DNA of 40,519 nucleotides, taken from IMG/VR virus record IMGVR_UViG_3300027896_000097, positions 1 through 40,519 of that record; one strand, given 5' to 3'. The position numbers and the translations under genes were made by a program. The DNA comes from a virus. This document shows positions 33,215 to 35,080 of this stretch, piece by piece (the stretch's first letter is position 1; each line of letters begins with the position of its first letter). Below the pieces are notes generated by a model. The model saw nothing but the letters and a program-made list of their open reading frames with translations. It made no database searches and was not told where the DNA came from.

Positions 33215-35080
33215 ATGATACCAACGATCCAATTCAGGGAACAGTACGGGGAGGTCATATCACGGCTAATCGAGGAGTTTTTCTATGGGCTTATTTACAA
33301 GCCCTTGCTCGACGTAATAAACAAGCACCTGCCGGAGGCGCCGGTAAAGTTGTCGGCCGCGGATCCCCCGGAGGACGAGATGCCGCTGATGAGAAAAATT
33401 CAGGACGGGGTGATAACGTACGACGGTCAAAGCTTCGCGGGAACGTTCGATTCCCGGTCAAGCAAGGCGATCCGGAAGATGGGGGGCGTGTGGGATCCCA
33501 TCAAGAAAGTATTTCGGATGGGTCCGGGGAAGCTGACCGATAATCTGAAAGTCGCGGTCCGGGCCTCGCAGGACCGCTCGGAGAAGATCCACGCGGGACT
33601 TACCAACGAGCTGGGGAACATTGAATCGCGGATCGATCCTGCCGTTGAGGAGCTTGATCTCAGCCACGGGATCGACCGGGTGATCGCGGGACTGCAGAGC
33701 CAAACGATCAACGCCATGAAAGCAATCGGTGTGCCATATACGCTGACCCACGGGATGCGGGAACGATTGAAAGCGGACTACACCGATAACATGAAGCTTT
33801 ATATTAAGGGCTGGGCCGAGGAGCACGTCAAGACGCTCCGGGATAAGGTTGCGGCCAACGCCATGGCCGGGTATCGCTTCCCCCGGCTCATGGACACGTT
33901 AAAGACTGATTACGGGGTCAGCGCGAAAGGGAAGGCACAGTTTTTAGCGCGGCAGGAGACCAGCCTGTTTATGTCGAAGTTTCGGCGGGAGCGCTTCAAG
34001 GACGCCGGGGTCAACTTTTACGTATGGCAGACCGTGGGGGACAGGAAGGTCCGGGTTGATCATCAGGCGCTGAATAAGCGGGTTTTTCAGTTTGGGGATC
34101 CCCCGGTGGTTGATGTAGCGACCGGCCGGAAGGCGGAGCCGGGCGAGGATTTTAATTGCTTACCGGCCGACTCACGGATTGATTTCGTTCACGGAGTAGA
34201 GAAATGTTTCCGGCGTTGGTATAGCGGTCATTTGACCACGATCGTTACGGCCTCGGGCAAAACGGTTCGAGCCACACCGAATCATCCGGTGCTTACGACT
34301 CGGGGATGGAAGGCGATAGGTTTGCTCGATGAGTCGGACTATGTCATCGATTTGTCCAAGGAACTGGCCAATGCGCCGATAGCCGATGGCGATCAGCGTA
34401 TACCCATGATCAGCGAGATATTTGAAGCGCACAGGGAAACGGGCGCGAGCCACACGTTCATGGGGGAAACGAATCAGTTCCACGGCGACGGCTCCAACTG
34501 CGAGATCGATGTTATAGACACCGCAGGGCTTTTGAGGATCAGCAGGCAGATTGATGGACTTGAGCTGGTCAAACAATTCGCGCTCGCCTTCGCCAACAAT
34601 CTTACATCGGCTTTGAGCGGTTTTCGCCAGAATCTTTTGTCTTTTGTTTTTGGGGATGTGTTTGCAGGCGGGATGGGAAGCGGCAGTCAACTTTTGGCGA
34701 TCGGCGAAAGTCATGCGACTCATGCGAATGGTATTGGCTTCAGAAATGCTACGAATGGATATGCCGGCTTCGAGGAGCCGCCGACGGATTACAATACGTT
34801 CAAGGTGGGTTCGTTTCGAAATGGAAAGTTCGCTCTCGCCGGAGAGATACGCATCGATGATGGGTTTTGGGTCAAACTGCAATCGGTTGCCCGAGTGGCG
34901 GCGGATCGGGTCGCAGGCATTCGGAACGATCTTTTTAATGGCCATGTTTTTAACCTCCAAACCGATTTAGGATATTATACATCAACAGGTGTCATTGTGT
35001 CAAACTGCCGGTGCGTTGCCCGGCCGATCACCAAGCCGGTGCATAAAATCGGGACCGAGTGGAAAATAATTGACGAATAA
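33215..35080 (+). CDS. MuF-like head morphogenesis protein containing an intein
   Basis: 621 residues as translated. The exteins (residues 1-314 and 598-621) form a Mu gpF-like minor head protein: RQETSLFMSKFRRERFKDAG, then VWQTVGDRKVRVDHQALN, and the motif EDFN joined to CRCVARP, where MuF proteins normally read ED..CRC. Between them lies a 283-residue intein starting with Cys315 and ending with Asn597 before Cys598. Splicing would give a 338-residue mature protein that helps connect DNA, portal and capsid. ATG has TTAGGGGGG. The intein also holds an antisense gene. Confidence 0.85.
   Translation: MIPTIQFREQYGEVISRLIEEFFYGLIYKPLLDVINKHLPEAPVKLSAADPPEDEMPLMRKIQDGVITYDGQSFAGTFDSRSSKAIRKMGGVWDPIKKVFRMGPGKLTDNLKVAVRASQDRSEKIHAGLTNELGNIESRIDPAVEELDLSHGIDRVIAGLQSQTINAMKAIGVPYTLTHGMRERLKADYTDNMKLYIKGWAEEHVKTLRDKVAANAMAGYRFPRLMDTLKTDYGVSAKGKAQFLARQETSLFMSKFRRERFKDAGVNFYVWQTVGDRKVRVDHQALNKRVFQFGDPPVVDVATGRKAEPGEDFNCLPADSRIDFVHGVEKCFRRWYSGHLTTIVTASGKTVRATPNHPVLTTRGWKAIGLLDESDYVIDLSKELANAPIADGDQRIPMISEIFEAHRETGASHTFMGETNQFHGDGSNCEIDVIDTAGLLRISRQIDGLELVKQFALAFANNLTSALSGFRQNLLSFVFGDVFAGGMGSGSQLLAIGESHATHANGIGFRNATNGYAGFEEPPTDYNTFKVGSFRNGKFALAGEIRIDDGFWVKLQSVARVAADRVAGIRNDLFNGHVFNLQTDLGYYTSTGVIVSNCRCVARPITKPVHKIGTEWKIIDE
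34172..34945 (-). CDS. antisense homing-endonuclease-like protein encoded within the intein
   Basis: 257 residues from ATG 34945, wholly inside the intein on the opposite strand. Order: basic N-terminus, HTH-like part (AYLSGESELS...IRRRLLEAGISIRSISEANT, ~32-71), a linker with MTFADRQ, then a restriction-like core: GEGERELFDQLKS (E121), QKPCGVYNIDLAV (D147), VAVELIRFPHE (E156, H162), RFKYLADHGYTLIAIGYR and a C-terminal DDIVRL helix. This resembles the Vsr/EDxHD type of homing endonucleases. GGAGGTT sits 7 bases before the ATG and a consensus promoter lies just upstream. Unlike the other reverse frames it reads as a compact natural protein. Confidence 0.75.
   Translation of the reverse strand: MAIKKIVPNACDPIRRHSGNRLQFDPKPIIDAYLSGESELSISKRTHLERIVIRRRLLEAGISIRSISEANTIRMSRMTFADRQKLTAASHPACKHIPKNKRQKILAKTAQSRCKIVGEGERELFDQLKSINLPADPQKPCGVYNIDLAVGAVAVELIRFPHERVARARFPVRFKYLADHGYTLIAIGYRRIGQFLGQIDDIVRLIEQTYRLPSPSRKHRMIRCGSNRFARGRNDRGQMTAIPTPETFLYSVNEINP
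34952..34958 (-). promoter_or_regulatory. Shine-Dalgarno of the antisense endonuclease gene
   Basis: Minus strand GGAGGTT (plus strand AACCTCC), 6-7 bases before ATG 34945. On the plus strand the same bases encode the NL of the intein block F motif VFNLQT. The strong site supports 34945 as the start rather than TTG 34960. Confidence 0.7.
34974..35003 (-). promoter_or_regulatory. consensus promoter for the antisense endonuclease gene
   Basis: Minus strand TTGACA (35003-34998), 18-base spacer, TATAAT (34979-34974). All 12 bases match the sigma70 consensus. The predicted start is near 34967, giving a ~22-base leader with GGAGGTT. The -35 lies in codons V-S-N at the end of the intein, so the promoter is inside the element and moves with it. 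Confidence 0.8.

Follow-up and report, generated by a model that had tools for sequence, protein, structure and literature searches.

Introduction

Descriptions of inteins generally distinguish those with an endonuclease in the sense frame from mini-inteins, in which it has been lost. The locus considered here, found in a viral DNA of 40,519 nucleotides (IMG/VR record IMGVR_UViG_3300027896_000097, the whole of which is hereafter called the window), raises the question of whether one and the same stretch of DNA can code for an intein on one strand and, on the other, for the enzyme that would mobilise it. Such a mobility enzyme, antisense to the splicing protein, had been proposed in a first-pass annotation made from the letters of the window, and the proposal is now supported, at the level of sequences, by conservation, by profile and fold matches, by free-standing homologues, and by a promoter together with a Shine-Dalgarno sequence. 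As such, the 849-base insert in the MuF gene is very probably composed of an intein on the sense strand and a homing endonuclease gene on the antisense strand.

The sense strand: a MuF gene and its intein

The insert interrupts the coding sequence of a phage head protein, with the following features on the sense strand (coordinates of the window):

33215..35080, plus strand: MuF-like minor head protein gene, split by the intein (PF04233, E 7.7e-11; phrog_15127, E 5.7e-65)
34157..35005, plus strand: intein of 283 aa, from Cys1 to Asn283, with Cys+1 in the C-extein (PF14890, TIGR01445)
34274..34288, plus strand: intein block B, TPNHP (from the translation; H43 invariant in 72 inteins)
34391..34891, plus strand: intein middle, residues 79-245, presumed to be mostly a passive linker (low pLDDT; more variation at position 1 than at position 3)
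34889..35005, plus strand: C-terminal splicing part, i.e., blocks F and G, ending GHVFNLQTDLGYYTSTGVIVSN (pLDDT; sense-type substitutions back at its end)

The MuF ORF forms one continuous frame of 621 aa matching Phage_Mu_F, in which the intein exhibits Cys1 at 34157, GHVFNLQ as block F and Asn283 at 35003-35005, followed by Cys+1; both the coordinates and the profiles agree with the intein initially annotated from Cys1, TPNH, block F, Asn and Cys+1. The Intein_splicing profile (PF14890) matches with an E-value of 8.7e-6 on the full ORF and of 1.9e-6 on the intein alone, under Pfam's cut-off, and TIGR01445 scores the intein alone at 24.7 bits for a cut-off of 24.5. When the full sense ORFs of relatives were scanned (n=73), Phage_Mu_F was recognised in 61 and Intein_splicing in 58, and Cys1 as well as the terminal Asn are kept in 124 of 126 aligned sense inteins. 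In block G, the penultimate residue of the window intein is Ser, not His. A non-His penultimate residue is a recognised variation and does not exclude the status of intein; among 101 relatives, 37 inteins end in Ser-Asn and 51 in His-Asn.

In the AlphaFold2 model of the sense intein, pLDDT exceeds 90 at residues 1-60 and 251-283 and mostly ranges from 34 to 66 at residues 121-240, so that, as modelled, the splicing halves would be the well-predicted part and the middle mostly a passive linker. A sense-frame endonuclease in the intein middle was considered and rejected, since the profile search of the intein returned no such domain and the structural model of this part is poor. An Rfam scan of the region found no RNA element, hence no sign of an intron.

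The antisense strand: a putative homing endonuclease

On the complementary strand, a single ORF covers nearly the whole intein, with the following parts:

34172..34945, minus strand: putative antisense homing endonuclease gene, 257 aa from ATG 34945 (relatives, conservation, AlphaFold2)
34769..34867, minus strand: HTH domain, helices 27-34, 39-46 and 50-59 (AlphaFold2; HTH_7 and HTH_58 matches in relatives)
34313..34585, minus strand: nuclease domain, aa 121-211, with E121, D147 and E156 (profile and fold of I-Bth0305I, 3R3P; residue conservation)
34181..34291, minus strand: C-terminal beta-hairpin, aa 219-255, over intein blocks A-B (mean pLDDT 93-96; synonymous suppression at block B)

The ORF of 257 residues originally placed at 34945-34172, wholly inside the intein, is exact to the nucleotide; it can also be read as 262 aa from an upstream TTG at 34960, with the same stop at 34172. 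Respective to the sense codons, the third position lies opposite the first antisense position and the middle positions coincide (1:3, 2:2, 3:1). Structure prediction of both frames gave a confident model for the antisense protein and, for the sense protein, a model confident mainly in the splicing halves. With an alignment of 78 proteins as input, AlphaFold2 yielded for the antisense protein a mean pLDDT of 89.5; the model shows the HTH helices, a core of the restriction-endonuclease type and the C-terminal hairpin.

Compared with the PDB using Foldseek, this model ranks the catalytic domain of the homing endonuclease I-Bth0305I (3R3P) at the top (probability 1.0, TM 0.66 by target, E only 3e-3), and the same chain also comes first when the family profile is run against PDB sequences with hmmsearch (E 2.6e-7). 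Among the 78 members, Pfam matches correspond to PF18741, a restriction-endonuclease fold (31 members, best E 4e-9), HTH_7 (33 members), HTH_58 (20 members, best E 7.6e-12) and DUF559 (7 members). The window protein alone has no Pfam match and no phmmer match in the PDB, and its identity consequently rests on the relatives and the family profile. The HTH-like and nuclease-like parts discerned in the first-pass annotation are thereby borne out, the antisense family being, by profile and predicted fold, an HTH and nuclease combination nearest to I-Bth0305I. Its layout in the alignment starts with one HTH unit or two, continues through a linker (R..SEA..RM....R..L..AAH.AVRG) to the nuclease core (GxGE...L...GI...Q.AVG.YN.D.A.G.VAVE) and finishes with a tail. 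Of the four residues originally singled out in the nuclease-like part, D147 and E156 are invariant among the 78 aligned relatives and E121 is kept in at least 90%, but H162 falls outside the conserved columns; Q138, Y144 and N145 are nearly invariant. The last residue of the VAVE motif is E156, and the complement of this motif is FHGD, a nearly invariant motif of the sense frame.

Relatives and conservation of both frames

A tblastn search of phage records with the antisense protein returned 74 matches (best E 3e-23, in Edwardsiella phage MSW-3), those examined being either antisense to inteins of MuF or head genes or a free-standing gene in Acinetobacter phages, and viral contigs contributed over 100 further loci with relatives of the protein. 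Alignment A1, composed of 15 broad sequences, proved too divergent as a scan query and subsets were used in its place. Across the approximately 118 loci examined, with GC contents of 0.35-0.71, all but about four have, along the matched stretch, an open frame on each strand, bearing in mind that most loci were gathered by antisense similarity, which biases the counts of open frames and of stop codons. The exceptions are an antisense stop in L039 and L132 and a broken sense frame in L010 and L045. In L039 and L132, there is one stop each in the antisense match and the sense intein is still open, which possibly reflects early decay of the nuclease, in line with a homing cycle.

Loci picked by sense similarity (n=11: L014, L015, L144-L152) include nine with an intact antisense ORF of the same family, the remaining two being Gordonia phage Sitar, whose antisense nuclease is of another type, and an unverified record in which the frames are broken. 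The non-redundant set, below 80% identity, amounts to 101 inteins. The conservation of the antisense ORF among intein homologues, put forward as a check in the first-pass annotation, is thus found in about 100 divergent inteins and, as far as can be read from these sequences, the two-strand arrangement is kept in about 100 distinct phage inteins. In the genome collection, relatives occur only in Aggregatibacter and in one Peregrinibacteria contig, i.e., a short contig binned to Candidatus Peregrinibacteria and bearing a relative of the nuclease (JABINC010000024.1).

Selection on the antisense frame

In the exteins, the third codon positions of the sense frame vary most, as in a sense gene. In the body of the intein, on the contrary, it is sense position 1, i.e., antisense position 3, that varies most, and the sense pattern returns at blocks F and G. 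This flip to antisense-type substitutions was found in three separate clades, the one of the window among them. In 30 locus-disjoint pairs, changes at sense position 1 outnumber those at position 3 in 29 (p=3e-8), with totals of 1685, 636 and 1162 at positions 1, 2 and 3, respectively; this codon-position test is independent of frame openness. At block B, the sense synonymous sites are suppressed. The sense codons TTA, CTA and TCA, which would stop the antisense frame, number 201 vs 971 expected after re-encoding by the extein codon usage of each locus, a count biased by the antisense-based sampling. When the window intein was re-encoded synonymously, the antisense open run averaged 97 codons vs 264 observed, and none of 200 re-encoded sequences was as long. 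Identity compared with synonymously re-encoded sequences was above the null in both directions but, because re-encoding saturates synonymous sites, this test was not used and the position asymmetry alone was relied on. Judging from these substitution patterns, the antisense frame is under purifying selection at the amino-acid level, the clade of the window included.

Antisense expression signals within the splicing motifs

A perfect antisense promoter and a Shine-Dalgarno sequence, absent from the first-pass annotation, came out of the follow-up:

34998..35003, minus strand: -35 box TTGACA, within the Val-Ser-Asn codons ending the intein (12/12 promoter shared by 11 non-redundant inteins)
34974..34979, minus strand: -10 box TATAAT, after an 18-nt spacer (promoter match)
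34953..34958, minus strand: Shine-Dalgarno sequence GGAGGT, within the Asn-Leu-Gln codons of block F (codon bias)
34943..34945, minus strand: ATG start, opposite CAT, the His codon of block F (CAT/CAC bias)

This predicted sigma-70 promoter matches at 12 of 12 positions (TTGACA-18-TATAAT, 35003-34974) and sits within the last codons of the intein; in the 11 non-redundant inteins with such a full match, two different placements are found. Promoter scores are higher than those obtained upon synonymous re-encoding (Wilcoxon p=1.3e-8, n=70, the members not being phylogenetically independent). Codon choice in block F is similarly skewed, the His codon being CAT rather than CAC by 63 to 7 across the family (238 to 365 in the exteins), and the Leu codon being CTC in 52 of 78 members and CTG in one of 78, when CTG makes up about 32% of extein Leu codons. 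The -35 box sits on the codons of the usual penultimate His, and promoters matching at 11 positions or more are present in 18 of the 37 Ser-Asn inteins vs none of the 51 His-Asn inteins, in which no sigma-70 promoter was recognisable.

Empty sites, free-standing copies and a second nuclease type

Relatives from Gordonia, Klebsiella and Salmonella phages include precise intein-less alleles. Considering as intein-less an allele where at least 80% of a joined-flank query lies in one place, contiguous alleles were recovered in 79 of 108 records with the Gordonia queries, 42 of 51 with the Klebsiella-type and 297 of 356 with the Jersey/Kagunavirus-type. The divergence of the intein and that of its host gene are, in the sequences compared, incongruent in both directions, e.g., exteins 99% identical with nucleases only 83% identical (L005/L114), or exteins 54% identical with nucleases 79% identical (L068/L069). 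In Escherichia phage KMB36 (L147, OR525703.1), the intein occupies another MuF site (TSTTC|FTAET ... IVKN|CRARD) with the antisense nuclease intact, which suggests a change of homing site.

In Acinetobacter phages IME285 (L010) and BUCT629 (L153), the same nuclease is annotated as a gene of its own, which meets an intein-less MuF gene tail to tail, and the other frames across the IME285 gene are full of stops. The contig L045 provides a second, independent free-standing nuclease beside an intein-less MuF gene. These free-standing nucleases may be either ancestors of the antisense gene or escapees from the intein.

The Gordonia phages Sitar, Lennon, Nordenberg, Thing3, SchottB and Barsten harbour, at the same MuF site, a different-looking intein with an antisense LAGLIDADG-like protein, encoded in Sitar (L148, MH153809.1) at 1483-2193 of the locus. 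This protein matches phrog_5046 (endonuclease) with E 1.6e-15 and, weakly, Pfam LAGLIDADG_3 (E 0.26), and a cyanophage and Caulobacter phages have relatives of it that are annotated as endonucleases. Since two unrelated nucleases are found antisense in MuF inteins, antisense carriage seems to have come about with two types of nuclease.

Proposed mechanism and alternative explanations

The sense strand would be translated within the late MuF head protein, where the ends of the intein would fold as a splicing domain and excise the insert, the middle being tolerated as a linker. From a promoter within the C-terminal splicing motifs, an antisense transcript would arise and be translated from the Shine-Dalgarno sequence and ATG in block F. 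The product, with its HTH, its Vsr/I-Bth0305I-like nuclease and its C-terminal hairpin, would cut the intein-less MuF gene at the insertion site and, upon repair off the intein-bearing copy, the element would spread; a private promoter would free the timing of the nuclease from late head-gene expression. Dual coding under selection, the nuclease and HTH identity, the start signals, the empty sites and the free-standing relatives are read from the sequences; what we infer is that the antisense strand is transcribed and translated, that its product cleaves the MuF site and brings about homing, and that the promoter uncouples the timing of the nuclease. More broadly, it is likely that recurrent and widespread encoding of homing endonucleases in antisense, involving two or more unrelated types of nuclease, keeps phage inteins mobile, the splicing motifs having been bent to carry promoter, Shine-Dalgarno sequence and start, e.g., from the penultimate His to Ser at the -35 box, and the nuclease being expressed independently of the late gene.

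In the register 1:3, 2:2, 3:1, similarity of the sense frames imposes a degree of similarity on the antisense ones, and among GC-rich members chance alone often yields a long antisense ORF (with several P values of 0.1-0.3), from which one could view the antisense ORF as a by-product, kept open by the sense codon composition and seemingly conserved through sense conservation. Such a by-product is hardly credible; it is refuted by the codon-position pattern, where, along the intein body, first positions of the sense codons change more than third ones, opposite to what sense-only coding would give, by the avoidance of TTA, CTA and TCA, and by free-standing homologues persisting where other frames are broken, and it further sits ill with the open frames of AT-rich members (L014, 303 aa) and with the HTH and nuclease profile matches.

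A real antisense gene could still serve another role than homing of this intein, e.g., as a repressor, a superinfection-exclusion or a defence nuclease, considering that the HTH-nuclease architecture is generic and that its target is a predicted one. This is quite improbable for a gene whose product, among solved structures, comes nearest to a homing endonuclease, which is bound up with a mobile intein whose insertion site is conserved and empty in many alleles, whose free-standing versions adjoin intein-less MuF genes, and which resides in an intein devoid of sense-frame endonuclease. It is likewise unlikely that the nuclease was functional once and that most present copies, the one of the window included, are fixed relics in an immobile intein; the antisense stops at two loci, L039 and L132, would fit a homing cycle, but the purifying selection on the antisense frame extends to the clade of the window, and the window copy has intact active-site residues, promoter and Shine-Dalgarno sequence.

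Significance and comparison with known systems

If an intein with an antisense homing endonuclease is the right reading, many phage head-gene inteins regarded as endonuclease-free would be armed on the other strand and overlooked by annotation. The family is also large and diverse and makes a testable example of two proteins whose genes, on opposite strands, overlap almost from end to end; free-standing versions of one partner provide a natural control, and the sequence of splicing motifs is linked to the control of an antisense gene. The first-pass annotation knew of no described case, and none was found in a search of an open-access full-text library; the parts, namely the intein and the homing endonuclease, are known and, as far as that search shows, it is the two-strand arrangement which is new.

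With canonical LAGLIDADG/HNH inteins, the element shares a splicing domain in a conserved gene, an element-borne endonuclease and precise empty sites, but here the endonuclease would be a separate protein of the opposite strand with its own predicted promoter, and the sense middle has no endonuclease. With EDxHD/Vsr-like homing endonucleases (I-Bth0305I, 3R3P), the likeness lies in the nuclease fold and profile as well as in a multi-domain organisation with a DNA-binding part; the differences are the antisense location in an intein and the conserved set, i.e., E121, D147 and E156 without H162, the crystallised chain of I-Bth0305I having an Ala aligned opposite D147 of the window protein. Split inteins in fractured genes with a free-standing endonuclease of a then-new homing family were reportedly described by Dassa and colleagues in 2009, the endonuclease gene being said to lie between the intein halves with no overlap. 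Common to both is a homing endonuclease family tied to phage-type inteins, but the window intein is continuous, not made of two separately coded halves, and almost fully overlapped.

In the ShiLan element, an endonuclease gene lies out of frame in a non-intein insertion (Arsenault et al., 2025; PMC11855218); as here, the endonuclease gene is hidden in another frame and the insertion is open in the host frame, but the window gene is on the minus strand and within an intein. Finally, group I introns whose homing gene lies on the opposite strand, as in Porphyra (PMC2585584), likewise associate a self-splicing mobile element with an antisense endonuclease gene. Because such introns are spliced as RNA, their sense strand needs no open frame, whereas the intein must code on both strands.
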